Positions 895-49,270 of a stretch of DNA of 64,000 nt are shown here, piece by piece. Source of the stretch: Rhizophagus irregularis (lineage: Eukaryota > Glomeromycota > Glomeromycetes > Glomerales > Glomeraceae); assembly GCF_026210795.1 (NCBI RefSeq), contig NC_089452.1, positions 3,553,501 through 3,617,500 on the forward strand, in the 5' to 3' direction. The notes beneath the pieces are model-generated. The model saw only the letters and a list, made by a program, of their open reading frames with translations. It made no database searches and had not been told where the DNA came from. The translations under genes and the position numbers were made by a program. Each line of letters starts with the position of its first letter. Position 1 is the stretch's first letter.

Positions 895-2995
895 TTAATC
901 CAATAATTTTTTGCTCATGTATAATGTAATCTTATCAACTTTCTTTTTTATTGAAATCCAATCCTCACATATGTATTTCCTTACAAAGGTATCCATAGAT
1001 TTCTTTACCAAAGAGACTGATTTTTGTAATCGATCTACTTTTCCCATTTGTAAATCTTTAACTTTATTTGTAAGTTGATTTGAATTGTCCTTTACTTTGA
1101 ATTCTGAAAGTTGATTTGAATTGTCCTTTGCTTTGGATTCTGAAGTAATTTTATCTGTTCGAAAAATACCTTCTCTTTTTTCCCATAAAATAACTTGTTC
1201 ACATCTTGGTTTCCATATTAATTCTTTAAATGCTAGAATGAATCGAATTAAAATGTTGGCCATAAGTGTCTGTGCCTCAGCAAGAGATATCTTGAAGTCT
1301 TTTTGTAATCTTATTGATAGACAAGTTTCAACTTTTACTTCTAATGCCAAATGTTAGAACTTTTGAAATTTTTCTGACTTTGCTGTAATTCCTAATATAT
1401 TTTGTAATACTTTTCTAATAAAATCTTCACCTTGGCATCTAATTTGTTTTTGTTTCAAACATATAATTATAGATTCTTTTGTTGTAATTTCCAATATTTT
1501 TTGCCAAGCTATCTCATATGCCTGACATTCAAATAAATGATTCCAATTTTCTTTCTTATTACATTTCATAATACATTTCATTTCCTTATAGAGCTTTGGT
1601 TTTCTTATTACTAAAATTGATCCTAATGGAAGGATTTTATGAAATAATTTTGCTATAAAAGTCCATAAATAGTTGATTCTCATACTATTGCAGTGAAACC
1701 CCTTGCAATAATGGAAAATAAGCCAAGTAATTTTCCAGTCTATCTGATTAACATCTCCATAACATAATTCCTGATTATTTTTTAACAATAACCATTCAGT
1801 AGCTTTTTACCTGTAGCTAATATTTTCAAAATAAATCTTCTAATATTAACTTCAATAGGTTTATCTATAAAAACAGGAAAATAAGATAATATATTATTAA
1901 TAAAATCTACATTATTCCTGAATAAATTGTTTCCACATCGTTCCTTCTTTGCTAATTTATCAGCTATATCATTGCCTATTATGCCACTATGACCCTTTAT
2001 TTTAACTAACTTTAAATTTATAGATGCTTCTCTGATCAGTATAATTATTTTAATAATGATTAGATTATTGGTCTTTTTAAACCATGTTCTAGTTGTTGAA
2101 TTAAAAGCTAAATTAATTGAATCAATAGCACCTAAGCTATCTGTATAAATAGTTACATTAGAATTTTCTGGTGTCAACAATGCCAAGAAAATAGCTACTA
2201 TTTCTGCCCTGGTTGATGATGGCCATAAAGATAAATATGAATATACTGAAAATTCTCCTAATTCATTACTTGTATAGAATGCTGCATCTAAATCCACAGT
2301 AGTATTATCTGCTCTATGTAAAAGGTTATTATTATCTATAGTCTGATTAGCTAGTGATCCATCTGTATAATATTCAATGTTTTTCAATGACTTTAATTGA
2401 TGTCTTATATTTGTAAGTTCTTGTTTAAGTGTATCTTGTTCGATCCATCGATTGATCCATAAACCTAAATTATCTCCATTCAAATTAATTATAGGTGTTT
2501 TTTCCAATTGTTGTATATCACTATTTGCTGAAATATTTTTAATTCTATTTAACGATTCCACTATATAATACCAGTCGATATGTGTAATTGCACCTGTTGA
2601 TAAATGAATAAAAATTGGTAATACTAATGCATTATGTTGGGTTATTGTAATCATCTTGGGACATTCCTGTTTCTGAATAATTGCTTTTTGAGAATTATCT
2701 GAACATATTTCAATATTACAAACTTCTATAATTAAACATTCAATTTTTTCCTCATTTTTCTTTATCTGTGTTCTTTTCTTAACAAATCCTACTGAGATTT
2801 CATTGTTTTTATCTTTTATTATAACATATGGGTGTTTTCGCTTATCTTCTGATACTGGTTATAATATATTATTCAAAAAGTTAAATAGGGAATGTCTAGG
2901 CATTTCTGGTGCTGATATTCCCTTAATCCATCGGATTAATAATTGAAACCATTTGGCTATGCGTCCTTTTGCTGATAGCCCTGCAATGAAATGAT
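895..2995 (-). pseudogene. LINE-type retrotransposon ORF2 C-terminal part (RNase H), decayed
   Basis: Read on the minus strand, the frame is nearly continuous from about 2995 to 895. A type 1 RNase H domain lies within 2400-1900: YTDGSLANQ holds the first catalytic Asp, then SSTRAEIVAIFLAL gives the Glu, IYTDSLGAIDSI the second Asp, and KIKGHSGIIGNDIADKLAK the His/Asp C-terminal motif. Downstream lies a Cys/His cluster (KCNKKENWNHLFEC, about 1570-1520), as often follows RNase H in non-LTR elements. The reverse transcriptase and endonuclease parts are absent. Lesions are a TAA near 2860, a frameshift near 1790 and a stop at 1354-1356. It once made the RNA-degrading domain of a retrotransposon polyprotein and is now dead. 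Confidence 0.8.
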
Positions 2996-3360: not shown

Positions 3361-3599
3361 CATCATAAGAGATTGGTATCAAATAATCGAAATAAATACA
3401 CAGGTCAAATAGATGTCATTGTCACAAAATTTGCCTGGAATTTTTCTGGCAAATTGAGAATTATCCCGGTAAATTGGGTAAATTGTGTTACAATTTTGGA
3501 ATAATGGAGGTCTTACAATTTGGCAAATTTTGTTAAAATGGCAGAATTCCTACAGAATTCCTAATTCAAATGTTGAGAAATTTTTCAGTAAATTATCAT

Positions 3600-4210
3600 T
3601 AAATTGTGGGAAATTTTAGGCAAATCTTTAGTAATGATATGCAAACGAAGTGCAAATTGTGGTGAATTTAATTAAATTTTTAGTAATTTTATGCAAACGT
3701 AATATAAATTGTGATGAATTTTAGGCAAATTTTTAGTAATGCTATGCAAACGAAGTGCAAATTGTGTTGAATTTTGTTAAATTTTTAGTAATTTTATGTA
3801 AACGTAATGCAAATTGTGGTGAATTTAGTTAAATTTTTAGTAATGTTATGTAAACGAAGTGCAAATTGTGGTGAATTTAGTTAAATTTTTAGAAATGTTA
3901 TGTAAATTGTTGAAAATTTAGGTGAATTTTTCAGCAATGTTGTGCAAACGTAATGCAAATTGTGGAAAATTGTAGCATTTTTTTGGTAAATGTTAGCTAA
4001 ATTTAATGAAATTTAGGATAATTTCGGACAATTGAGTGAAAATATTTTACCAATTTTGGACAATTGAGTGTAAACAGTATAAATGCAACATTTTTGGAGA
4101 TAATTTAGTGAAATTTTGCAATAATTTTGGACAATTGAGTGAAATTTTGCAATAATTTCGGACAATTGAGTGAAATTTAGTAATAATTTTAAACAATTTA
4201 GTGTAAATGT
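3600..4210. repeat. left subterminal tandem repeats of element 1
   Basis: About six copies of a roughly 52-bp unit around GCAAATTGTGGTGAATTTAG and AAATTTTTAGTAATGTTATG (3610-3960) are followed by four copies of a shorter unit built on GGACAATTGAGTGAAATTTT (4015-4200). They sit just inside the left TIR. Such subterminal repeats often bind transposase. Confidence 0.7.
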
Positions 4211-4329
4211 TATGACAATTTAAAACATTGATTTAATAATTTTACATAATTTATTACAATATTATTTATTAACAAATGCACAATTATTATTTAATGATGA
4301 GAATCTATATTAATCTATATTCATCAGGT

Positions 4330-5912
4330 ATCCAATGATCCATGGGTAATCTGCACCTCTAATTCATTCATGTATCTAATGTCTGATGCCAAAGTAGAAG
4401 CTGGTAAAAACATACAAAAAAGAAAGTAAAAAAGAAACGTTAGTTAACGTTTCTTTTAAAAAAAAAGAATAAAAATTAAGTTTCGCAATATAACATTGCA
4501 AAACTTACCGGTCGTTTCCATCATTCTAACGTCCAGAACCTACAAAAAGTAAAAAAGAAACGTTAGGTAATGTTTCTTTTAAAAAAAAAAGAATAAAAAA
4601 TAAGTTTCACAATGTAACATTGCGAAACTTACCAGTCGTTTCCATCATTCTAACATCTGGAACCTACAAAAAGTAAAAAAGAAACGTTAGGTAATGTTTC
4701 TATTAAAAAAAAAGAATAAAAAATAAGTTTCGCAATGTAACATTGCGAAACTTACCGGTCGTTTCCATCATTCTAACGTCCAGAACCTACAAAAAATAAA
4801 AAAGAAACGTTAGGTAATGTTTCTTTTTAAAAAAAAAGAATAAAAATTAAGTTTCGCAATGTAACATTGTGAAACTTACTGGTCGTTTCCATCATTCTAA
4901 CGTCTGGAACCTATAAATATTAAAAGAAAGAAACATTTAGTATTATTTCTTTAAAAAAAAAATAATTAAAAAATAAGTTTCGCAATACAATATTGCGAAA
5001 CTCACCGGTTCATTTTGATTTCCATTATCCAAACATCTGGAATCTATAAAAAGTAAAAGAAACGTACGTTAGTATCATTTCTTTAAAAAAAAACATAAAT
5101 AAAATTAAGTTTCGCAACAATTGTTGCGAAACTTAACAGTTCGTTTCGAGTTTCAAACGTCCAGAACCTACAAAAAAAAGAAAGAAACGTTAGTTAACGT
5201 TTCTTTTAATAAAAAAAATTAATAAATTAAGTTTCATAACAATTTGTTGCGAAACTCACCGGTTCATTTCATCCAAATGTCTGGAACCTACAAAAAGAAG
5301 GAAAGAAATGTTAGTTAACGTTTCTTTTAATAAAAAAAAAATTTAAAAAAAAGAAAATATTACCTTCCTCCCAAAGTCTGGGTCATAATTTCGTCTGGCG
5401 TTCCTACAAAAAGAAGAAAGGAAACGTTAGAAATGTTTCCTAAAAGAAATTAAAAAAAAGTAAGTTTCGAAACTGTTTCGAACATGAAACTTACCATTTC
5501 ACTTTCTGAAGTTGAAGACCTACACAAAAGAAAAATAGGAAACGTTAGAAACGTTTTCTTACAAAAAAGAATTAAAAAAAAATTTTTTAAAAAAAAGTTT
5601 CAAAGCGAACGCTTCAAAACTTACCATTTTCGTTTTCTCGTTTCCTAAGTCAAAAATACTGAAAGACCTAAAAAAAAAATAAAGGATCGTTAAAAAAACG
5701 ATCCTTATAAAAGTAAAAAAAAAAAATTTATTTTAAAGTTTTGAAGCAAAACGCTTCGAAACTTACCATAATTTCAGTTCATTTTCCAAAGTCAAAACAT
5801 CGAAAATCCTACAAAAAAGAAAGAAAGGAAACGTTAAAAACGTTTCCTTGCAACAAAAATTAAAAAAAAAAATTAAAAAAGTTTTAAAGCGTTTCACTTC
5901 GAAACTTACCAT
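4330..5912 (-). repeat. array 1: tandem intron/micro-exon-like units
   Basis: About twelve units of roughly 120 bp. On the minus strand each unit has a T-rich tract ending TTTTTGTAG or TTTATAG, a short block, then GTAAG or GTGAG. Blocks on the minus strand are 5808-5767 (42 nt), 5667-5625 (43), 5519-5495 (25), 5403-5364 (40), 5287-5260 (28), 5167-5138 (30), 5043-5006 (38), 4910-4880, 4786-4756, 4663-4633 and 4539-4509 (31 each). A non-repetitive final block at about 4404-4330 has an open frame (LASDIRYMNELEVQITHGS) and then TGA. Each intervening segment holds two hairpins: one starting at the 5' splice site (TAAGTTTCGCAATG pairs with CATTGCGAAACTTA) and one around AACGTTAGTTAACGTT. Most blocks are 3n+1 long and would rotate the frame, so one continuous repeat protein is not supported. 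Confidence 0.6.
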
Positions 5913-6192
5913 TGTTTTTCTGAAAGACGGTTCTGGGAAAAGGAAAGAGAATGGGAAAGGAGTGGGGATCAAAAAGAGAAGGAAAAGGGCGAAGGGGAGA
6001 AGGGGAGAAAAAGAGGGAAGGTGAAGGTGAGAGAAAGAGGAAAGGAAAAAAAAAGAGGGAATAAGCTTTTGCTAAAAAAGCTTAATTTTTTTTTTCGTTA
6101 TACCGCAACTGAAGCTGCGATAATTATTAAGTAATATCACGTGACGCATGTGATATATAATTTTATATAAATAGGGCTTTCCCCCGCCCTGG
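5910..6192 (-). promoter_or_regulatory. promoter-like leader of array 1
   Basis: Reading minus: a TATATAAA-type TATA box (about 6162-6174), upstream of it a GC-rich patch (6175-6192). Downstream lies an inverted repeat containing CACGTG (TATCAC...GTGATA, 6136-6156), then a strongly pyrimidine-rich leader (about 6060-5930), and an ATG (5912-5910) in the context AAAACAATG directly abutting a GTAAGT donor. The layout suggests transcription starts here and runs into array 1. No expression evidence is available from sequence alone. Confidence 0.45.
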
Positions 6193-6589
6193 AATTTTTT
6201 TTTTATTTTAATAATTTTAAATAGATGTATATATATGTTTATATATACATATATATATATCTATTAACTAATACTTTACGAAAAGCGAGCCCTTCCTCTG
6301 TAAACAGGTAGAGGCCATAAAGTACCTATAGGGGGAGAGCCATTGCTGCTCCCTCCGCCTGTTTATAGTGACAAAAAGAAGGAGTCTTCAGTAGTAAGGT
6401 TTAGTACTGAATTAAACATTACAACACATCGTGTTGATACATTGTTTATATTAACAATGTGATTTAATGTTAAATAATTCATTTAGAATATAAATATTAT
6501 AAATTTAATAATGTTCGTAATTTACAAATAAATAAAAATAAAAATTAACAATTTTAATGTAATTAAGTGTAATGCTACGTTATTCAATG

Positions 6590-7430
6590 TAATTGTAGTA
6601 TTTTTTTTGTGTTTTTTAGCGCAATTCCGCATTTTTTAGTGCAATTCCACATTTTCTAGCATAATGTTACATTTTCCAGTATAACGCGAAATTTTCTAAA
6701 AAATATAATAATTGTGGTACTTTTTAGTATAATGCTACATTGTCTAGTGTAATTGTGGTATTTTTTAGTACAATGCCGCATAATTTAGTATAGTGCTACA
6801 TTTTTTAGTATAATTTAATGTAATGTGGAATTTTCCAAAAAATGTGATAATTGCGATGCTTTTTAATGTAATTTGGTGAAATGCTACATTTTCCAGTGTA
6901 ATGCCATATTATTGAGCATTTTCAAAAAAAAAATGTAACATTTTAATATTCTGACAAAAGTGAAACATTTGACCAAAAAAACATAAAATTTGCTGAAAAT
7001 ATGCAACATTTGACAGAAAATATAGAATTTTCATAAAAAATACACCATTTGCCAGAAAATTGGAATATTTGACAAAATTTGATTTTAATTGACAATGTTA
7101 CAACAATTTTATGAAATGTTGTTACAATGATGTCACATTGGAGATAAAATGCAGCATTTTCATAAAAATGCACCATTTGCAAGAAAATTGGAACATTTGA
7201 TAGAAAAAAAGCAAAATTTGATTTTAATGACAATGTTATAACAATGTCATAACAATATTACGAAATGTTACATTTGAGGTGTAATGTAGCATTTTCCCAA
7301 AATTTCATAAGATTTGCTAAATCAGACAATGTTGTAACAATGCTATTTCAAAAAATTGTTCAGCATAATGTAGCATTTTCCACAATTTCTCACCATTTTC
7401 CAGGAAAATGGGGAATTTGCATTTTTTGAA
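6590..7430. repeat. right subterminal repeats of element 1
   Basis: Degenerate units of about 25-30 bp built on ATTTTTTAGTGCAATTCC and ACATTTTCCAGTATAATG (6600-6930), then longer units with TTGACAGAAAAT and ACAATGTTATAACAATGTC (6950-7400). They mirror the left subterminal zone in position. The open frame on the minus strand here is only the repeat read through. Confidence 0.65.
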
Positions 7431-7468
7431 TTTTAAACAATGGTGCCCCTTTGACCTGTGTATTTTTT

Positions 7469-10070: not shown

Positions 10071-10480
10071 ATGCATGCCAAATTAACTGGGTTACCAAGT
10101 ATTTTGACAGATAAGATTCGTTCCAAATTATACAAAAGATATAAAAAAGAAACTGGATGTAAGCTATGGCAATTATCAAAAGCTGTGACAAGTATATCAG
10201 AAAAGCTTCAAGCCTCTGCCTATCACTTTCAAAGCCAAACCCGATCCAGAATTAATTATCAGATCCATGTTAGAGCATTTCACATACTTGAAATTCTGAA
10301 ATAGTTTCAGAGAGATTGATAATTATAATTTTGCATCACCTCAGCCGCCATGAAGCTCACCATGCCCTATCTGCAATGGAAAGCATGGGAATTATGGATT
10401 ACATGGCGAATGGTATAAAAATGAAACAGAATATTGTCTTACTTGCTTCACTTCAAGCAATAAATTCAAATTCACAATCA
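10071..10480 (+). pseudogene. zinc-finger-like protein fragment, frameshifted
   Basis: From 10071 a frame reads through YKRYKKETGCKLWQLSKAV. The continuation moves to another frame near 10220 (KAKPDPELIIRSMLEHFTYL), passes two TGA codons, and then encodes SSPCPICNGKHGNYGLHGEW and NETEYCLTC. The spacing CPIC...YCLTC is typical of a zinc-binding site. One frameshift plus two stops show a pseudogene. Both TGAs could derive from CGA by C-to-T change. I recall similar proteins in mycorrhizal fungi but cannot name a function. Confidence 0.4.
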
Positions 10481-10633
10481 TAGCATAGAAACTCTGTCAT
10501 GTGAAATCGATCACCTGAAAAAATGTGCAGTATCCAGAACGCCAAAATAATAGGACTGTGCAATGTAAGGCTGAATTCTTAATGAAATTTTGGTCACACA
10601 AGAATTTTTTTGACTATATTAATATAATATATC

Positions 10634-10810
10634 ATGCCAAATTTCTTACCAAACAATCAGAATAGTACAGCTAATAAGGAGCTGAAAGGCGCTTTGCTAA
10701 GGCAAAACTACTTGGTTTGTGAGGAATGTGATCATCACTCACATCTATATTGCAAAAGGTGTAAGAAGGTTATGGAAGGAATTTATAAGCAATGTGAATG
10801 TTTCAAGTAA
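10634..10810 (+). CDS. small Cys/His-rich protein (58 aa)
   Basis: An ATG at 10634 opens a clean 58-residue frame ending with TAA at 10808-10810. The C-terminal half carries CEECDHHSHLYCKRCKK followed by a second pair (QCEC), which is a typical zinc-binding arrangement. The N-terminal half is polar (LPNNQNSTANKELKG). It may be a small gene or the first exon of a lost one; a GT donor is not evident at the end. It lies 130 bp left of TIR element 2. Confidence 0.35.
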   Translation: MPNFLPNNQNSTANKELKGALLRQNYLVCEECDHHSHLYCKRCKKVMEGIYKQCECFK

Positions 10811-11479
10811 TTTGATCAATAAAGCAATGGTGCAAATTTACCAGACATTTTATAATTTTTTCGCATGGAATGAGTGATGGGATTGTGTGAAACAAAGTGT
10901 GTACTATTATCTTTTCAATCAAGTTTATTGTAGCTTGATAACATCGGGAAATTTTTTGGGGTGCAGATCTGCGCAGATCTGCAGGTGACATTTTTGCGCA
11001 GATCTGTGACCCTGTCGGCAGTCTTTGAAAAAAAAAAATCCTCAAAAACTGCGCAGAATTTCAAGAAAATAAAGTTCTGCAAAAATCTTCAAAATTAAAT
11101 CTGCGAAGAATTTCAAGAACTAAGTTCTGCAAGAAATTCAAGAACAAAATTCTGTGAAAAAATTCAAGAACGAAGTTCTGCTGCAATAATTCACAAAAAA
11201 ATAAATTATTTACTAATCATCACAGTCATTATATATTGTATTTTTTATTATGTATTTTTATTTACTAATAAATTTGTCAAATAAAATTGCAAAATTGAAT
11301 ATAGCTAAATAAATTTATAAAGTTAAAGAATTTCAAATATAACTAACTGAAATTAATAAAATACAATATAAAAATTGAGAAAAAAAACCCAATATATGCC
11401 AACTTATTAAAATATAATCATCTTTCAAATGTATTTTAATGACGTTGACAGCGCATATATCTAAAGTATTCATCCAAAA

Positions 11480-13420
11480 TTTAAAGAACTTTGAAGAATA
11501 CCTTCAAAATTCTCTTCAGATATCATCTAAAAAGTTGCGAAGCTACAAAAAAAAAGAGAAAAAATTAATTTCGTTAAAAAAAAAATTTTATTAAAAAAAA
11601 TAAAAATTTAAAGAACTTTGAAGAATACCTTCGAAGTTCCATTCAGGAAACACCCAGAAAGCCATAGACCTACAAAAAGAGAATACCTTAGTAAAGTTTC
11701 ATTAGAAAAAAAATTAAAAAAAATTGAAGTTTCAAAAAGAAATGAAACTTTTCAAAACTCACCTATCCAAAGGTCGCAACCAATACCAACAAAATATAGA
11801 AAAAAAATTGAAAAAAAATTGAAGTTTCGAAAAGTTAATGTAACTTTTTGAAACTTACTACAGGTTTCGTTTCCAAAGGTTGCAACCGATACCTACAAAA
11901 TAAAGAGAAAAAATTAAAAAAAAATTAAAGTTTCAAAAAGTAATGAAACTTTTTGAGAAAAAATGAAGTTTTGAAAAGTAATGTAACTTTTCAAAACTTA
12001 CCACAGGTTTCGTTTCCAAAGGTTCCAACCGATACCTACAAAATAAAGAAAGAAAATTAAAAAAAAAATTAAAGTTTTGAAAAGTAATGATACTTTTACA
12101 AAACTTACCTATTCAACCAACTGAATACGTTTCAAAAAGAACGAACAAAACTTTTCAAACTCACTTATTCAAAAATCCCAATTTCCAACTGATGATACCT
12201 ACAAAATAGAAAAATAAAGATAAGAAAAAAAAATAAGTTTCGAAAAGAAATAACGAAACTTTTCGAAACTCACCTATCCAAAAATCCCAACCGATACCTA
12301 CAAAATATAGAAATAAAGTTAAAAAAAATAAAATTTGAAGTTTTGAAAAGAATATGATTCTTTTCAAAACTTACCATCCAAATGTCCCCGCCAACCGATA
12401 TCTACAAATAAAGAAAAAAATTTAAAAAAAAAATAATAGAGTTTTGAAAAGAAGAACAAAATTTTCAAAACTTACTACTCCAAAGATCCCAACCAATACC
12501 TACAAATAAAGAAAAAAATTAAAATTAAAAAAAAATCAAAGTTTCAAAAAAATGAAACTCTTGAAACTTACCGATGCAAAGTGAAGGGTCTCGCCGATAC
12601 CTAAAAAAAATAAAAAATAAAAAAAATATTAAATTTTTTTAAAAAAAAATGAAGTTTCGAAACAAAACTTTCAAAACTTACATGAAGGGTTTCGCCGATA
12701 CCTAAAAAAAAATAAAAAAAAATATTAATTTTTTTTTTTAAAAACTTTTGAAACTTACCGATGCAAAGTGAAGAGTCTCGCCGATACCTAAAAAAAATAA
12801 AAAATAAAAAAAATATTAAATTTTTTTTAAAAAAAATGAAGTTTCGAAAAAATGAAACTTTTGAAACTTACGTGAAAGGGTTTCACCGATACTTAAAAAA
12901 AAGAAATAAATAAAAATATTAATTTTTTTTTAAAAAATGAAAGTTTCGAAAGTTTGAAGAATGAAACTTTCGAAACTTACCATGAAAGGGTTTCGCCGAT
13001 ACCTAAAAAAAAGAAATAAAAAAAAATATTAATTTTTTTTTAAAAAAAATGAAGTTTCAAAAAAATGAAACTTTCGAAACTTACGTGAAAAGGTTTCACC
13101 GATACCTGAAAAAAAGAAATAAAAAAAAATATTAATTTTTTTTTAAAAAACGAAAGTTTCAAAAGTTTTAAGAATGAAACTTTTTGAAACTTATGTGAAG
13201 GGCGCCGATACCTAAAAAAAATAAATAAAAAAAATATTAATTTTTTTTAAAAAATAAAGTTTCGAAAGTTTAAAGAATGAAACTTTCGAAACTTACCGTG
13301 AAGAGTCTCACTGATACCTAAAAAAATAAATAAAAAAAATATTAAAAAAATCTTTTAAAAAAACAGTTTCAAAAGAAAAACTTTCAAAACTTACCAATCC
13401 AAAGCGAAGAGTCTCGCTGA
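11480..13420 (-). repeat. array 2: tandem intron/micro-exon-like units
   Basis: About seventeen units on the minus strand, each with T-rich sequence ending TTTGTAG or TTTTTAG, a block beginning GTATCGG, and a donor GTAAG or GTGAG. Block variants include GTATCGGCGAAACCCTTTCA, GTATCGGTTGGGATTTTTGG and longer 29-41 nt forms. Block lengths (20, 21, 22, 24, 27, 29, 34, 41) are not consistently multiples of three. The donor-proximal intron forms a stem such as AAGTTTCGAAAGTTT pairing with AAACTTTCGAAACTT. Units at the low-coordinate end are longer and more diverged. Confidence 0.55.
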
Positions 13421-13609
13421 TACCTAAAAAAAATATTAGAAAAGATAAATTTTTTAAAAAAACTTTTTTTAAAGCTAAAGATTATCATTCGGCACACAAA
13501 CCATAATTGACTAGTCTGATCAACTTTATCGATTTCTGGTTTATATCCGATTGGTAATGATTACTGTAATAATACGAACTGACAAATATACTCCAACAGG
13601 ACCCTGATA

Positions 13610-14690
13610 TATAGTAACAAAAAGTAATGCATTTCGCATTATTTTAATATTTTTTAATAGGAAAAAAGTGCGAAATGCACTACTTTAACAAAAAATGGTG
13701 AATTTCGCACCATTTTATTAAGAACAAAAAGTGTGAAACACACCATTTTAATAAATAATTGGTGAGTTTCGCACCATTTAATTAATATTTTAATATAAAA
13801 AAGTGCAAACGCACCATTTTAACAAAAAATGGAGAGTTTCGCACCATTTTATTAATATTTTAATAGAGAAAGTGCGAAACGCACCATTTTAACAAAAAAA
13901 TGGAGAGTTTCGCACCATTTTATTAATGTTTTAATAGAAAAAGTGCGAAACACACCATTTTAACAAAAAAATGGAGAGTTTCGCACCATTTTATTAATAT
14001 TTTAATAGAAAAAGTGCAAAACACACCATTTTAACAAAAAAATGGAGAGTTTCGCACCATTTTATTAATATTTTAATAGAAAAAGTGCGAAACGCACCAT
14101 TTTAACAAAAAAATGGAGAGTTTCGCACCATTTTATTAATATTTTAATAGAAAAAGTGCGAAACGCACCATTTTAACAAAAAAAATGGAGCGTTTCGCAC
14201 CATTTTATTAATATTTTAATAGAAAAAGTGCGAAACGCACATTTTAACAAAAAAAATGGAGCGTTTTGCACCATTTTATTAATATTTTAATATAAAAAAG
14301 TGCGAAACGCACCATTTTAATAAAAAAAATGGAGCGTTTCGCACCATTTTATTAATATTTTAATATAAAAAAGTGCGAAACGCACCATTTTAACAAATAA
14401 ATGGAGAGTTTCGCACCATTTTATTAATATTTTAATATAAAAAAGTGCGAAATGCACCATTTTAATAAAAAAAATGGAGCGTTTCGCACCATTTTATTAA
14501 TATTTTAATATAAAAAAGTGCGAAACGCACCATTTTAACAAATAAATGGAGAGTTTCGCACCATTTTATTAATATTTTAATATAAAAAAGTGCGAAATGC
14601 ACTATTTTAACAAATAAATGGTGAGTTTCGCATGATTTTATTAATATCTTACTAATAGAAAAAATGTGAAACGAATTATATTAGTAACAA
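13610..14690. repeat. 70-bp palindromic satellite in element 2
   Basis: About fifteen head-to-tail copies of a roughly 70-bp unit made of GTGCGAAACGCACCATTTTA, AACAAAAAAATGGAGAG, TTTCGCACCATTTTATTAAT and ATTTTAATAGAAAAA. GTGCGAAACGCAC is nearly self-complementary and also pairs with the opposite arm TTTCGCACCATTTT, so each unit can form a long hairpin. Units differ by few substitutions, suggesting recent amplification. Confidence 0.85.
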
Positions 14691-14854
14691 AAATTTTTTG
14701 AACTAAGATTTGGATTTGCGTAGTGTTACTATGAAAAAAAGTTGTGTAGAGTTAATATCGTAGTAAATGCATGCCGATCATTTGTGAGTTATATTAGTAT
14801 TATTCGGGGTTTTACTCCAACCGGCAATTGTGTTAAATTAATTAGAGTTAATCA

Positions 14855-15110
14855 AAATGATAAAATTGCTGATATTTCAATGAAAAATAAAAGCAAAAAT
14901 CTGCAAAATTGCAGATTACCGCAGAATTTTTCTAATAAATCTGCAGAAATCTGCAAAATTGCAGAATTTTGCTGATTTATAGATAAAAATATTCAATTAT
15001 CTGCGAAGTTGCAAAATTCGCAGAATTTCGCAGAAATGCGTCAAAAAAGTGCAAAAAAATGCAGAGATCTGCTAATTTCGCAGATCTCCGCAGTTCTGCA
15101 CCCCAAAAAC
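14855..15110. repeat. right subterminal CTGCAAAATTGCAG repeats of element 2
   Basis: Repeated AAATCTGCAAAATTGCAGA motifs and CGCAGAATTT variants just inside the right TIR. The same motif family occupies 22560-22870 at the right end of element 3. These are likely transposase-recognition repeats. Confidence 0.7.
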
Positions 15111-15120
15111 TTTCCCGATG

Positions 15121-16200
15121 AAATAAACATGCAGTAATATTATAATAATTATTACATGTATCACAAGAACAAGTAATTGCACAAAATAATTTATTCTCAA
15201 ACTTTCTCGCACATTCTCAAAATTATGTATAGCCCTTTGATGATCTTTACATATGGATTATGGATAGCGTTAAATTCTTTATTGTTAAATCTGTTGATCA
15301 GATTTTCATGATGTATTCATATTAACGTAATTTTCCCCAAAAGCATATTCCAAGATCGATCCTGCAAATTGCATAAAAAGGTGATGTCCCGGCTAGTGAA
15401 TCCTTTTATCTGCCTCATGCAAGTAAAATAAAAAAAAATTCAAATCCATCAAGCTTACCATTATTAAAATCATTGATATTAACAATCAAACGAACTTGCA
15501 TTTTTCACAAAGTCATAATAAAGTAAGTTAGTTTATTGCTCGGCTAGCTTCTTGAAACATGTCATCACAATGTTATTTGATTTTCCCGCCTCTATAGATG
15601 TTCCAAAATAAAACGGACGTATTACTCTTCTTGTTATATATCAGCGTTTTGATCTTCGCCGAGAAAATCTTTGACTATCATCATGCGTATAATAGGCGCA
15701 GTGAAATTACTCACATAAATCTCGTCATATGCCTTAACATCACGCTCCTCAATAAAATTTGGCGCAGTGTGTCTTCAATAATAAACATCTTCACGTGCCG
15801 AATTCTTGGTATTTAGCGCAATATCGTAACGGCAATAAAAAAAAATTGAATTAACTTTATTGTAATGCATTAAGTAATAAATTTCAGGCAGAATGTAATG
15901 TTGCGAAAATTAATAGTAATGGTAAGTGTGAATCGGAAATATTACTATTTTTACATCAGTTGCTAATCTCCCGAATTTATGCTTGTAGATTCAAAATTAC
16001 TTAATCTCAGAGAAGTTTTCTTGCAGGAAATAATCTTTTATATAGTCTGTGCGGGTGAGAGTGATATAGATAGATGAAAATTCTGTAGATATGGAGTGCG
16101 ATAATTTATTTCGGAAATCTAGTGCAGTAAAAGAGTGTGGGGGTGAGAATCTTGTAGTTAGTAGAAAAATTAGCTATAGATATTTTTCGTAAATATGAGA
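15121..16200. other. stretch without a supported gene
   Basis: The sequence is less repetitive and slightly more GC-rich than its surroundings. A 72-codon open frame at 15598-15816 is hydrophobic but shows no family signal, donor or acceptor context, and I do not call it. The region probably includes the distal upstream part of gene 1. Confidence 0.4.
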
Positions 16201-16620: not shown

Positions 16621-18639
16621 CAGATTAGAGGTGCAATGGATACAAATTTCATATATTACGGGACTAAATAAATACTATGCCTGAAATCTGTAACAGGTGA
16701 GACAGGTGATAGGTGTGACATCACTAATTATTAACCTATGTGCGACTTATCGTTAAATTCATCATATAAATGCATTTTCACTTTTTTCACTTTTCATACC
16801 TTTTTTCATAAAGAAAAACATTATGTCGGAACCAGCAGTTGATCCTGATTTCAGAATGTATCGATTTAAATACAAGAAATACAGTTTCTTCACGAACACA
16901 GATGCCCGACAATGGTCATTTCACTGTTTTTACATTTCTAGCCTTCACTCAGGAGACTCACCTAAAACATTCAATGAAATTTTCGACAAATGTGTTGCCA
17001 GCCTGAAATTCATTCAAAAGCAGAACAAGGTTCCAAAGTCAATTGTAAAGTTTGTGGGAGAGCTAATGGAACACAATCAGTCCAATGAATTTAAGAACTT
17101 ACAAGTTGCTTGCGAGCAGGATTTCTGTGCTCATGTTCTCTCGACTCTTTCAAGTGGATCGGTAACAAAGAGCAAAATGGCAAAAGGCTATATGAAACAG
17201 GCGAGTGATATCTTGGCTAGTGCAATGGGAGAACAAGATGAGGAGTTAGATGAGGAGTTAGATGAGGAGTTTGATGAGGATGGTACAAATGTATCGACAT
17301 TACTTCAAAATAAGGTAAGCTCTTCAAAAAGTGTTTTGCTTAGATGTTTGCAAAACATTAATGCAAGACTCATCATGCTTTCATATTTTTTTAGCAGAAC
17401 TCTAATCGAAAGTATAGTTATGACACACCCAGACGTGCTATAATGATTGAACCCACAAAAAGTACTTATGAATTCGATGATGAACAAACTTCATTAAGTC
17501 CCTCACCAGTCGCTTCTTCCTCAACACATAATAATTTGAAAAGAAAAATAGAAGATGGCCAGTCGGATTTTGAAGAACTGTCACTATTGTTTGATGAATC
17601 AAACGAAGACAACCTTGTAGAAAATATTAATGAAAATGTACTTGAACAAGAAACCATACTGCCATGTACAAGTGATTCTTCAAAGGTAAACCTTTAATGT
17701 TAATAGTTGGGAACGTGTATTCAGTAGGCTTACTGTATTATTTTTAATAGATAAGACCAAAGAATATAGATGCTAATATCATCGAAGCCTTCCATAATTA
17801 TCAAAACACAATCCCTAAAATTCGTAGAGTTATTACATAAGTTTGATATCATTCTATTATTGTTTTCGGTAATAACCAATTTACGGTTTATACACATTTT
17901 GTCCAATAGTCCTGCGTATTGGGAAATCCTCGACTTAACAGGAGAAAGTTTGTATGATTGCAAACAACTCTCAGAGGAAGACATATCACAACTATCACAA
18001 GAGTTTTCTGATGACATTTCCTGGAAAACAATGCCTCTAGAAAAGAATATACGACAATATTTCGATAGTAATTGTGAGATAAAGGTGGATGTTACTAGAA
18101 AACTGGACACAAACATCCAGTTTATGTCATCAGGAAATTTTTTGGGGAGCAGATCTGCGCAGATTTTCAGAAATTATATCTGCGCAGATCTTATACCCTG
18201 GCGCAAAACATTAGAGGAAAAATCCAATAAAAAACTGCGCAGATTTTATAAATAACAAAGTTCTGCGCAGATTTTTAAATAAAAAACCTTCGAAATACCT
18301 CAGCAATTTTTTTCAGTAAAAATCTGCGTCACAATAATACAAATTAATTTATTGCATTAATTACTAATTTATTTATATAATCAAAATTACTTTTTTATTA
18401 TATATTAACAAGTTTACAAATACAATTGAAATCTATTACTAGTCATTGCTATTCATCATCTTTTTACTGCACATTTACATGTTGTTAATGGTTTGGAACA
18501 TTGTTCCAGTTGGTTCGATTCCAACAAACAAAAAACAAAATAAAAAATCAGAGATATTTGTTACAAATTTTGAAGTTATTACTTTCGAAATGTTTGACAT
18601 GAAATCCCAGGATCTAAAAAATAAAGAAAATGAATGTTA

Positions 18640-21600
18640 GTAAAACGTTCGTTAAAGAAAAATAAAAAAAATAACTTCAAAGTATTATTACCTTCGAAGT
18701 TCTTTCAAATGGAAGTCCAGAACCTAAAAATAGAAGAAAAATGAACGTTAGTAAATGTTCGTTAAAGAAAATTAAAAAAAAAGAACTTTGAAGTGTCATT
18801 ACCTTCAAAGTTCTTTCAAATGAGAGACGGGACCTAAAAAATAAAAGAAAATGAATGTTAGTAAAATGTTCGTTAAAGAAAATTAAAAAAAAGAAACTTT
18901 GAAGTGTTATACCTTCGAAGTTCTTTCAAATGGAGCCAGAACCTAAAAAATAAAGGAAAAATGAACGTTAGTAGAACGTTCGTTAAAGAAAAATAAAATA
19001 AAAAATAAAAAAGAATTTTAAAGGTTTACCTTCAAAATTCTTTCGTCCAGGAGCCGGAGAACCAAAACCCTGCAAAAAAACAACTGAAACGTTAGTAAAC
19101 ATTTCGTAAATTAAAGTAACAAAAAAATAAGAATTTCGAAGTTTACCTTTGAAATTCTTTCGTCCAGGAGCTGGAGAACAAAAATCCTACAAAAACAACC
19201 AACTGAAACGTTAGTAAGTGTTTTGCAAATTAAAAATAACAAAAAAAAAATGAAGAATTTTGAAGTTTTACCTTCAAAATTCTTTTCGAATGATGATGAC
19301 CTACAAAAAAAAACAAAACGTTAGAAAATGTTTCGCTAAATAAAAAAAAAACATAAAAGAATTTGAAGGAATTTTACCTTCAAAATTCCATCCAGAAGCC
19401 GTAAACCTGCAAAAAGTAAAAATTAAAACGTTAATCTACGTTTCGTTCAAATAAAAAATAAAAATAAAATAATTTTGAATTTCACCTTCGAAATTCCGTC
19501 CAATCCAGGTGGCTACCAGAAAAAGAAAAAGAAATCGAAACGTTAGTAATGTTTCGTTTAAATAAAATAAAAAAAAAATGTGTTTCGTAACGAAAAGTTC
19601 ATTACGAAACTAACCATGTTGAAAATTCTGTCCAGGCTGGAACTAGAAAGCTGAAAATCTAAAAAAAAAGAATAAAGAACGTTAACGTTCTTTTACAAAA
19701 ATAAAATAAAATAAAGAAATAAAAGAATTTCGAAAAAATACCTTCGAAATTCAGTCCAGAAGAGTTCGGGAGAGCTGGAAACCTAAAAAAAATCGAAACG
19801 TTAATAACGTTTCGTTAAAATAAACAAAAAAAGAATAAAAAATAAAAAATAAAATTGAAGTTTACCTTTAAAATTAAAGTCCTTCGGCATCCTGGACCTA
19901 TAAAGAAGAGAAAAACAAACGTTAGTGAACGTTCGTTAAAAAAAAAGACACCCTTTTTTTTCAAAAGTTATTTACCTTCGAAATCAAGTATGAAACACGT
20001 ACCTTCAGCATCTTGGACCTACAAAAATGAAAACGAATGTTAGTTAACGTTCGTAAAAAAAAAACTAATAAAAAAAAATATATTTTTGAAGGATATAAAG
20101 GATATAACCTTCGAAATGAAGCTCCGGAAAGCCATGGGCCTACAAAAAAAAAAGCTGAAACGTTAGTAAACGTTTCGCTAAAATAAAAGAAAAAAAGTAA
20201 AATGAAATTTCGAAGCCTTACCTTTGAAATATAAGACCGGAACCTGCCTTTCAGTTTCTTGTACGGTTGTACCTATGAAAAGTAAAAAAATGAACGTTAG
20301 AATTAGTAACGTTCATTAAATAAAATAATAAAAAAAAAATCGAAGATTTTACCTTTGATATGGAAGTTCTTTCGGCTTCCTTTACCTAAAAAAAAAGAAT
20401 AACGAACGTTAGTGAACGATCGTTTAAATAAAAAGAAAAAAAAATTCAAAGGTTAAATTTACCTTCGATAGGTTCTTTTAACTCGTTTTCGGATTCCTTT
20501 ACCTAAAAAAAGGAAATACAAACGTTGTTAACGTTCGTCAATAAAATTAAATATATATATATATATTTTTTTTTTGAAGGTTTTACCTTTGATATGGAAG
20601 TCCGGTTTGTCTTTCGGCTTCCTTTAACTAAAAAAAAGATGAAACGTTAGTTAATGTTCGTCAATATAAATTAATTTTAAAAAAAATTAATTTTTTTTTT
20701 CGAAGGTTTGTTTCACCTTCGATATAGGAGCCCGGAACTCAGTTTCAGCTTCCTTTATCTAAAAAAAAATAAGACGAAACATTAGTTAACATTCGTCAAT
20801 AAAGTTAATAAAACAAAATATTTTTTTTTTCGAAAGTTTTACCTTCAAAGTAAAGTCCGGAGCCATTTTTTGGCGTTAGGACCTATAAAATACAAAAATG
20901 AACGTAACTAACGTTCGTTAAAGTTAAAATATAAAAAAAAAATATTTTGAAGATTTTTACCTTCGAAATAAGAGTCCGGAGCTGATCTTCAGCATCCAGG
21001 ACCTAAAAATATGAAAATGAACGTTAGTGACGTTCGTTAAATAAAATTAAAGATTCAGAAGTTAATATACCTCTGAATTTCAAAATCATCGATAGGTTCC
21101 ATCCGAACCTATATAATATAAAAAAAAATTATTTTTTTTTTAAAAAAATAAATTAAGATTCAGAGGTAAGCATACCTCTGAATTCCAATATCTTTGATAG
21201 GTTCCATCCGGAACCTATATAATATAAAAAAAAATTATTTTTTTTTTTAAAAAATAAATTAAATTTCGGAGGTAAGCATACCTCTGAATTCCAATATCTT
21301 TGATGGGTTCCATCCGGAACCTATATAATATATAAAAAAAATTATTTTTTTTTTAAAAAAATAAATTAAGATTCAGAGGTAAGCATACCTCCAAATTCCA
21401 ATATCTTTGATAGGTTCTATCCGGAACCTATATAATATAAAAAAAAATTGTTTTTTTTTAAAAAAATTCGGAGGTAAGCATACCTCTGAATTCCAATATC
21501 TTTGATGGGTTCCATCCGAACCTATATATAATATATAAAAAAAATTATTTTTTTAAAAAAAAAAATTAAGATTCAGAGGTAAGCATACCTCCAAATTCCA

Positions 21601-22140
21601 ATATCTTTGATAGGTTCCATCCGGAACCTATATAATATAAAAAAAAATTTTTTTTTTAAAAAAATAAATTAAGATTCAGAAGTTAATATACCTTCCAATA
21701 TCTTTGATAGGTTCTATCTGGAACTTATATAATATTAAAAAAATTAATTAAGATTCGGAAGTAAGCATACCTCTGAATTCCAATATCTTTGATAGGTTCT
21801 ATCCGGAACCTATATAATATATAAAAAAAATTATTTTTTTTAAAAAAAATAAATTAAATTTCAGAGGTAAGCATACCTATGAATTCCAACTAAAATCATC
21901 GATAGGTTCCATCCAGAACCTATATAATATAAAAAAAATTATTTTTTTTTTAAAAAATAAATTAAATTTTGGAGGTAAGCATACCTCCGAATTCCAAACT
22001 AAATCATCGATAGGTTCCATCTGGAACCTATATAATATAAAAAAATTTTTTTTTCTTTAAAAATAATTAAAGTTTCGGAGGTGATATACCTTCAAATTAA
22101 AATTGACAATAAGCTCTATTATGTTCTTGACTTACAAACT
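18640..22140 (-). repeat. array 3: longest array of intron/micro-exon-like units
   Basis: About thirty units of roughly 100-120 bp on the minus strand. Each has an acceptor-like TTTTTTAG or TATTATATAG, a block starting GTTC, and a donor-like GTAA or GTAT. In the low-coordinate part, blocks end AAAGAACTTCGAAG and the following GTAT segment carries the complement CTTCAAAGTT, putting the donor in a hairpin loop. The AACGTTAGTNAACGTT hairpin recurs in each intron-like segment up to about 21030. From 21040 to 22090 about eleven more uniform units have blocks beginning GTTCCGGATGGAACCTATC; 39-nt blocks occur there. Two blocks near 22090-22300 look non-repetitive. Confidence 0.55.
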
Positions 22141-22559
22141 GAACGTTAACTGACGTTCATTAAAAAAAAATTTTTTTTTTTAAAGAAGAAAAAAAAGGAA
22201 TACGACTCCTTTTTTAGTTCTGATTTCCCTGCATGTTGCAGATTATGTGCTGAATGTTGGACGAATTTGCCTTAAAGACTCCGAACCTTGCAAATAAATT
22301 TTTTTTTTAAAAAAAAAAATTTCTCTGATAAGTTTCAAAGCTTAAAAAATAATAGAAATATTTTTTCTTTAGAATCTTTAACAGATTATTTCCTGAAAGG
22401 TGTTGTAGAAAAAATTATTTCACAAAGTTTTTTTCTTTAGTAATAAGTATTGTAGAAAAAATTATTTTTTTAAAGTCTTGTAAAGTTTTTTTTTTAAAGA
22501 GTATTGTAGAAAAAATCATTTAGGTATTAAATCAAGTTAGAGTTAATTAAAGTTTAAAT

Positions 22560-22870
22560 ATTAAATCAATGATAAAATTGCAGATCGAACTGATATTTTA
22601 ATGAAAAAAAAGCAAAAATCTGCAAAATTGCAGACTTCCGCATAAATTTTACATAAAAAAAAGCAGAAATCTGCAAAATCGCAGACTTTCCGCAGAAATG
22701 TATACATAAAAAATTGGAAATATGCAAAATTGCAGATTATTGCATAACTTTGTAAAAAATAAAAAGTGAAAATCTGCAAAATCGCAGACTTCCGCATAAA
22801 TTCATTAAAAAAATGCAGAGATCTGCTAATTTTACAGATCTCCGCAGTTCTGCATCTTAAAAAATTTCCT
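22560..22870. repeat. right subterminal repeats of element 3
   Basis: About six copies of AAATCTGCAAAATTGCAGAC spaced about 45 bp apart with CCGCATAAATT between them, just inside the right TIR. They match the right end of element 2. The open frame read through them on the minus strand is an artefact of the repeat. Confidence 0.7.
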
Positions 22871-23830
22871 GATGGTATGTATAAGTTTCCTTTGATTATA
22901 TTTTGTTGTCTATATAGTATTCTGACTCTGAATTGATATACAGAAAAAGCGATATGGTTAGCTTTTAGGGAATAATGACAGAGGAAGAACTAAAAATGAG
23001 CACAGTATTCCCACTCTTCCGTGGGATATTTACTACTGGCAAGATTAAAAATACCTGGTAAGTTTCTTTTGTTTTTTGCCAAATATTAATGTTAAAGAAT
23101 TAACAATAACTATTCTATATATGTAAGGGGGAAGTTCAAGCCTTGTCGACCAATTATGCACGTAATGAAAAAGGAAACCCATTTAAAAGAGCACGCATGG
23201 GTAGAAAAGTAGATATAAAAAGTACTTTGATCCAAACCTCCAATAAATTTAAAGTTATTTACGGAGAGGTAGCAGGAGGGTTGGATACATTTGGCACTCC
23301 TACTGCCTGTCGTAAGAAGTGCTATCTTGATAAGTTAAAGCTGATGATCATTATGCGTGATAACATTAACCGTTTGCTAAAAGAATGCAAATATGTATCG
23401 TCTGAAAAATGTATGAATTTAATAATATATGGCTGGCTTCAAATTGGTAGGTCTTACTTGCGCCATTACACTTATGCAGATTTAACTCACTAACGAATAC
23501 CATTTTTATGTGTATATAGGTCTATATCTCAACTTTTATGCTATAAACTGGTTAGGAGCCGGCATATACAGATTTGGTTTAGTCGATCAATGCAGATTAC
23601 CGTCAGCCGAGAATGAATGTGAGATATTTGAAGACGCGTACTGCATTCTCAAATCACTTGAAGTAAATATTGATCTTTGTTAATAGTATTAATACAAATA
23701 TCCATCTAACTTGTCGATCAAATAAATGTAGAATAAATCGCTTGAGACCGAAAAACTCGTTAAGGAATTATTGTTAGAAAATACTAAGGGAAACGACGGC
23801 AAATTACATTTAAAACTGAACAAGAGTTGA

Positions 23831-49086: not shown

Positions 49087-49103
49087 CACGTGAGTAATAT
49101 AAA

Positions 49104-49270
49104 TCACGTGATGAGACGCAGTAAATAGAAGAAAATAAAAGAAAGTATAAGTTACGTGATGAGACGCAGTAAATAGAAGAAAATAAAAGAAAGTATAAGT
49201 CACGTGATGAGACGTAGTAAATAGAAGAAAATAAAAGAAAGTATAAGTCACGTGATGAGACGCAGTAAAA
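49104..49270. repeat. 48-bp tandem repeat with CACGTGA boxes
   Basis: Three and a half copies of TCACGTGATGAGACGCAGTA and AATAGAAGAAAATAAAAGAA AGTATAAG. CACGTG is the E-box recognised by bHLH factors; further TCACGTGA sites lie at 48690 and 49085. One copy has TACGTG. Confidence 0.75.

Follow-up and report, generated by a model that had tools for sequence, protein, structure and literature searches.

Arrays of predicted hairpin-bearing introns and micro-exons as the interior of DNA transposons in Rhizophagus irregularis

Array 1 and the element that carries it

We analysed a stretch of 64,000 nt of the Rhizophagus irregularis genome (the window; C24:3553501-3617500), whose GC content lies between 22 and 36% in 2-kb steps, and searched the genome (146.7 Mb, 32 contigs) for related sequences. 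On the minus strand, from window position 5909 to 4412, we found 12 predicted introns (76–105 nt) and 11 micro-exons (25–43 nt), here called array 1 (Table 1). An earlier note on this DNA had described about twelve consecutive minus-strand units with splice-like borders, and the borders that it listed (5909/5808, 5766/5667 and 5624/5519) are exact when read as the first base of a donor and the first base of the next exon; nine of the 11 micro-exons are of length 3n+1, as it had said of most blocks. The introns have donors that are mostly GTAAGT or GTGAGT (GTAATA once), CTAAC-type branch points, a T-rich tract and TAG ends. The best chain of canonical introns through array 1 scores 34.8, compared with a maximum of 7.0 and a mean of 2.0 when this sequence was shuffled 200 times (first-order Markov), which bears out the claim that chance does not explain the splice-like array. 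Only six of the 12 introns are part of this chain, since intron 7 has a broken donor in the window copy (GT to TT). The last acceptor has also changed there, from TAG to TAT, and reads TAG in 17 of 17 aligned relatives; the intact order of donor, branch point and acceptor at regular distances therefore extends to 10 of the 12 introns rather than to every unit, as had been proposed. When the whole window was tiled, chain scores reached 26–35 in array 1, 17–19.4 in array 3 and 9–14 in array 2, all on the minus strand, and did not exceed 5.2 in any tile outside the three arrays. Across 21 loci (L001-L020 and the window, out of 60 loci fetched), a profile of the array 1 unit has 279 matches, 12 of which lie in the window copy, and the number per locus ranges from 10 to 19. 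Some copies have long unbroken chains, among them L011 with 16 introns and L013 with 17.

Table 1. Positions of the features in the window (array 1 in minus-strand order; the length of micro-exon 7 was assigned by homology)
Feature	Position	Strand	Basis or remark
Element 1, 4.06-kb predicted non-autonomous CACTA/EnSpm-type DNA transposon	3399..7460	- (array strand)	homology limits, shared ends
Left terminal inverted repeat CACAGGTCAAA	3399..3409	+	
Right terminal inverted repeat TTTGACCTGTG	7450..7460	+	
Left subterminal tandem repeats, 52-nt and 31-nt units	3601..4230	.	part 3399-4024 common to 8-kb elements
Right subterminal repeats	6600..7400	.	part from ~6879 common to 8-kb elements
Leader / exon 1, pyrimidine-rich, ends AGAAAAACAATG	5910..6060	-	approximate 5' limit
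Intron 1	5809..5909	-	splice-chain parse, fold analysis
Micro-exon 2, 42 nt	5767..5808	-	
Intron 2	5668..5766	-	splice-chain parse, fold analysis
Micro-exon 3, 43 nt	5625..5667	-	
Intron 3	5520..5624	-	splice-chain parse, fold analysis
Micro-exon 4, 25 nt	5495..5519	-	
Intron 4	5404..5494	-	splice-chain parse
Micro-exon 5, 40 nt	5364..5403	-	
Intron 5, donor GTAATA, no donor hairpin seen	5288..5363	-	splice-chain parse
Micro-exon 6, 28 nt	5260..5287	-	
Intron 6	5168..5259	-	splice-chain parse
Micro-exon 7, 31 nt	5137..5167	-	homology
Intron 7, donor GT to TT here	5044..5136	-	copy alignment
Micro-exon 8, 38 nt	5006..5043	-	
Intron 8	4911..5005	-	
Micro-exon 9, 31 nt	4880..4910	-	
Intron 9	4787..4879	-	
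Micro-exon 10, 31 nt	4756..4786	-	
Intron 10	4664..4755	-	
Micro-exon 11, 31 nt	4633..4663	-	
Intron 11	4540..4632	-	fold analysis included
Micro-exon 12, 31 nt	4509..4539	-	
Intron 12, acceptor TAG to TAT here	4412..4508	-	relatives
Final exon and 3' region with AATAAA-type signals	4240..4411	-	start by homology; approximate 3' limit
Element 2 with splice array 2 (~11.5-13.45 kb), ends CATCGGGAAA, 2-bp duplication	10942..15120	-	empty site in L030
Element 3 with splice array 3 (~18.6-22.1 kb), ends CATCAGGAAA, 2-bp duplication	18128..22874	-	

The leader and the final block that had been reported around the units are present, and both turned out to be parts of a larger repeated element, element 1 (3399-7460). 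In copies L021-L024, which were read with their flanks, homology stops at about 3398-3400 and about 7459-7462. The inverted ends have the form CACAGGTC(A/G)AA / TT(C/T)GACCTGTG, with one changed end letter each in L021 and L022, and 3-bp target duplications match in seven of nine copies assessed (L021-L026 and L029; L027 was left out, left end); the 3-base flanks differ in the window copy (ata/tat) and in L028 (aga/aaa). A 578-base array query gave 217 matches at no fewer than 40 array loci, a lower bound since the best 40 of 287 candidates were scored. With each end as query (best 40 of 90 and best 40 of 89 candidates scored), paired ends lay about 4-5 kb apart, others 6.4-9.5 kb and one pair 24 kb. 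Four relatives of about 8 kb each (L025-L028) have both end regions in common with element 1 (84–90% in the longest stretches); homology in this DNA comparison is confined to the end regions, and none of the four contains a splice chain above 8. L025, the one among them that was scanned against Pfam for a transposase, encodes Tnp2 (PF02992; 38.6 bits versus a cut-off of 28.6, E = 8.9e-10), and the 384-aa Tnp2 piece of L025 has no match in 12 array-bearing sequences, which comprise element 1 and 11 loci, among them L059 (7.0 kb) and L060 (6.4 kb). Because element 1 lacks a Tnp2 match and shares its ends with array-less relatives, one of which encodes Tnp2, we classify it from its sequence as a non-autonomous CACTA/EnSpm-type element with the array as its interior.

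Textbook CACTA/EnSpm ends start with CACTA or CACTG. Element 1 resembles the CACTA/EnSpm (CMC) elements and their non-autonomous derivatives in its CAC-starting inverted ends, its 3-bp duplication, its subterminal repeats and its longer Tnp2 (Transposase_21) partner; it differs from them in that its ends start with CACAG, letters 4-5 being unlike CACTA/CACTG, and in that its interior is a tandem intron/micro-exon array.

Two copies, L012 and L015, lack everything from exon 1 to the end of exon 3, with the junction at a repeated AATGGTAAGTTTCGAAG, as unequal recombination predicts. Elsewhere in the window we noted a weak match to the Tnp2 piece of L025 (43624-43929, minus strand; 24% identity over 119 aa, E = 2e-6), an open frame with an RNase H domain (1782-2858, minus strand; PF00075, E = 6.8e-14), which probably belongs to a retroelement, and a 48-nt tandem repeat with CACGTGA (49098-49269, 3.6 copies).

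Coding potential of the micro-exons

Micro-exon genes such as the schistosome MEGs and the aphid bicycle genes, which are protein-coding, also have long runs of very short exons, and this parallel had been drawn in the earlier note. A protein-coding micro-exon gene, secreted or effector-like and with constitutive or alternative sets of exons, would be consistent with several features of the arrays: exon 1 ends in AAAAACAATG immediately before the donor in eight of 11 aligned copies, most individual exons have one or two open frames, and the stop-free runs of the joined exons equal the 95% shuffle bound in L014, L036 and L046 and exceed it by one codon in L010. However, these runs fall under the bound in 23 of 27 arrays, and neither in array 1 and its copies nor in the 27 arrays did the exons join into an open reading frame. 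Exon lengths modulo 3 (0, 1, 2) number 50, 108 and 73 over 231 exons of the 27 arrays, counted in the best chain per array only, of which the window copy gives five exons. The commonest exon, of 31 nt, shifts the frame and has TAG and TGA in its other two frames, while between copies exon 2 measures 42 or 31 nt and exon 3 43, 44 or 34 nt. The final exon, which had been taken for an open block, lacks 5 nt in six of 17 relatives and 1 nt in two more. Since no frame is kept, stop-free runs stay near those of shuffles, exon lengths change and the final exon carries indels, we conclude that the predicted exons of the array are non-coding; the parallel with micro-exon genes fails at the missing frame, and a protein gene is the least probable of the readings weighed here.

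Two narrower coding possibilities were set aside. Inclusion of a single exon (ATG, one micro-exon and the final exon) would leave the window copy with a short open reading frame, but in eight of 17 relatives the final exon has indels. The SP7-like effectors of Rhizophagus irregularis, presumably from the same organism, are likewise repeat-rich genes; PMC11333574 attributes to them a signal peptide, hydrophilic peptide repeats and, ahead of the first repeat, a single conserved intron, a description that sets them apart from the arrays, in which no frame is kept.

Hairpins and conservation of the splice signals

A hairpin of roughly 13 bp encloses many of the donors of array 1, and another one contains the branch point. 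In a fold test, donor windows had a mean z between -1.2 and -5.0 in all 11 arrays and branch-point windows one between -1.9 and -4.1 in 10 of them, EL2 having no branch-point hairpin (mean z -0.27). Among units that are related and do not count as independent events, the arms of the donor hairpin pair at 4.22 of five inner positions over 58 distinct arm pairs, compared with at most 3.72 in 2000 re-pairings (207 of 335 parsed introns had both hairpin anchors); the longest stem at the branch point averages 8.26 over 160 distinct units, compared with at most 7.33 in 300 re-pairings (20 of 30 parsed sequences; EL2, L034, L035 and seven others were left out); and the exon end pairs with the intron start in EL3, L040 and L045, with 6.12 over 48 units that include a few probably false parses, compared with at most 5.94 in 1000 re-pairings. 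The predicted donor and branch-point hairpins keep their pairing while their letters change. Together with the missing exon frame, this makes the structured spliced RNA that the earlier note had listed as one option the best fit, with splicing that is predicted from the sequence. Donor masking is not a general feature, since the predicted folds place the U of the donor GU in a base pair in only 57 of 110 introns.

Non-coding host genes of intron-encoded RNAs also combine short non-coding exons with structured introns. The hairpin introns might be precursors of small RNAs or decoys for silencing, which splicing merely releases, and the strong folding of donor and branch-point windows in most arrays would suit such a role, as would a sub-threshold match of array-3 units to the Rfam family MIR9481 (L039:1763-1907 and 1553-1696, 39 and 27 bits; gathering score 130). 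The stronger of these matches, in L039, a copy of element 3, has 39 bits and E = 4.4e-5, and both probably reflect hairpin likeness. We consider this explanation improbable: the stems are short in the predicted folds and, in contrast to those host genes, overlap or adjoin donor and branch point, and no Rfam family reaches its gathering score in the window.

The main rival to a spliced structured RNA is a passive tandem repeat, in which a captured intron-plus-exon fragment was amplified, the splice signals persist by shared ancestry and the array has no function. The array-1 profile has 101 matches in eight arrays of other kinds, which differ in 46% of exon letters (458 of 853 kept, 54%) yet retain the donor GT in 117 of 119 cells (98%, a figure that rests on a profile trained on parsed units), the branch TAA in 239 of 254 (94%) and the acceptor TAG in 112 of 113; these values lean upward, as 59–63 of the 101 local matches reach the donor and 32–42 the acceptor. 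This retention speaks against a passive repeat, as do the paired hairpin arms that change together and the recurrence of arrays in carriers whose ends are clearly different. The picture differs among recent copies of element 1, of which 11 were aligned (from the 21 loci L001-L020 and window): 10 of 292 GT/AG cells in the first seven introns have changed (3.4%), a higher rate than in exon cells (21 of 1359) or in the remaining intron cells (79 of 4711) outside CpG (1.5–1.7%). The core splice sites are therefore not protected in recent copies, which favours the passive repeat, although, outside CpG, none of 219 branch TAA cells had changed and only 1 of 354 cells at donor positions +3 to +6 and acceptor position -3. 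The variable number of units per locus points the same way, and so do the exon differences among the 11 copies, the majority of which occupy CpG-type positions (69 of all 2025 cells differ, and 21 of 1359 when CpG is excluded); this concentration also suggests that element 1 copies carry cytosine methylation. Taken together, the between-family and the recent-copy results could fit a transposon with constraint, if any, in a few source copies, and we regard a merely passive repeat as unlikely, yet as a possibility of some weight.

Further carriers and a possible role of the arrays

The two other elements in the window have ends similar to each other, and their 2-base flanks match in all five cases assessed (EL2, EL3, L037, L038 and L039; L040 was left out). 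L030 (C27:364200-366100) is a paralogous site that lacks element 2; there the sequence passes from window 10941 directly to 15121, the two sides overlapping by 2 bases. Since the sequences on either side of element 2 (window 10291-10941 and 15121-15980) are uninterrupted in L030, element 2 sits within another repeat. Element 2 also contains a 71-nt tandem repeat (window 13632-14673), located on the leader side of array 2.

The donor-hairpin pattern has 141 matches in the genome and 0 in a reversed control, and all six places sampled outside the element-1 list are splice arrays with other exons. Their chain scores exceed the maxima of 200 shuffles each: 61.3 versus 12.1 (L031), 58.3 versus 9.6 (L032), 37.0 versus 6.5 (L036), 18.9 versus 6.2 (L035), 15.1 versus 9.7 (L033) and 13.3 versus 7.2 (L034). 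This sample also bears on introners. Introners, fungal introner-like elements and sister stwintrons are, like the units here, repeated spliceosomal introns with inverted-repeat structure, and the likeness of the present introns, with hairpins as in fungal introner-like elements (PMC8469720), would suit a reading in which every intron unit is mobile by itself and inserted repeatedly. We hold this to be very improbable: exons repeat together with introns in tandem units within a larger transposon, whereas fungal introner-like elements are reported at dispersed gene positions (PMC8469720); target duplications border whole elements; and the six sampled places were arrays, with no dispersed single intron unit among them, so that lone introners were set aside.

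The L036 place is a 3.5-kb element, L045, with a copy, L046, that has 98.3% identity to it; the element therefore moved fairly recently. It begins with CACTGG, has ends CACTGGTCGAA and is flanked by 3-bp duplications in both copies. Its ends differ by one letter from those of element 1 (CACAGGTCGAA versus CACTGGTCGAA) and may be related to them, and we therefore count at least two clearly different kinds of carrier ends, one (CACAGGTC/CACTGGTC) flanked by 3-bp duplications and the other (CATCRGGAAA) by duplications of 2 bp. Element 3 and L045 have a 53-nt tail in common at 96% identity and similar array units with different ends, as if a transcription unit had passed between transposons.

We consider it probable, with moderate confidence, that the array is a transposon-borne, spliced and structured non-coding RNA that travels as cargo. 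This reading is supported by the chain score, the element ends, the 3-bp duplications, the at least 40 loci and the Tnp2 partner, as well as by splice signals kept between families and hairpin arms that change together. It is weakened by the unprotected GT/AG of recent copies, the two broken introns of the window copy, the pairing of the donor U in only about half of the introns, the lack of a branch-point hairpin in EL2 and the CACAG start of the ends. In such a scheme, an RNA polymerase II transcript of the minus strand would run from the pyrimidine-rich leader as far as the AATAAA region and would lose about a dozen introns of about 90 nt to the spliceosome, leaving a non-coding RNA of micro-exons. 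The hairpins would most likely keep splicing local, each donor being joined to its own acceptor, and those that cover a donor or a branch point would slow it. Units would multiply and shrink through unequal recombination, and whole arrays would move by a transposase supplied in trans. The earlier suggestion of a repeat that spreads as intron plus exon holds for the outcome and not for the mechanism, in which units multiply in tandem and the 4-kb DNA transposon does the spreading. As a guess, splicing may keep the RNA of the element, or read-through RNA, short and harmless, or hidden from RNA-based silencing.

A broader proposal, which we put forward tentatively and regard as rather doubtful, is that self-contained structured non-coding splice arrays constitute a new kind of transposon cargo, present in one genome in at least two clearly different kinds of carrier and kept in transposing lineages because splicing benefits the element. 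Among open-access articles in PMC, we found none that describes such arrays by title and abstract. According to PMC11075540, whose main text contains neither "intron" nor "splic", roughly two-thirds of Rhizophagus irregularis transposons are unclassified; splice arrays may explain part of this fraction. If the arrays are spliced, they would offer many natural, diverged series of introns of about 90 nt with donor and branch point in or beside hairpins, and a ready test of how RNA structure steers the choice of splice sites. If they help the transposon, a DNA transposon would be coexisting with its host by means of splicing, and new introns and micro-exons could arise from such arrays. These considerations refer to one genome, to loci from best-scoring lists and to 60 loci fetched.

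A further observation concerns the tail of element 3, where a motif of about 50 nt around GTTGGAATCGAACCAACTGGAACAATGTTCCAAACCATTAACAAC (window ~18500-18560, minus strand) comprises, in several copies, two hairpins closed by GTTGTT/AACAAC. Its 22-nt core has 118 genome matches with at most one mismatch and 0 in a reversed control, and some of these places end arrays and some do not. The other strand of the motif presumably resembles a tRNA T-arm; a tRNA gene was rejected, ARAGORN giving none in the window and one truncated call in nine short stretches. Nor did the motif serve as a marker of arrays: among five new loci, three had none, L057 was marginal (7.8 versus a shuffle maximum of 5.8) and L056 was a clear array (21.2 versus 6.5).
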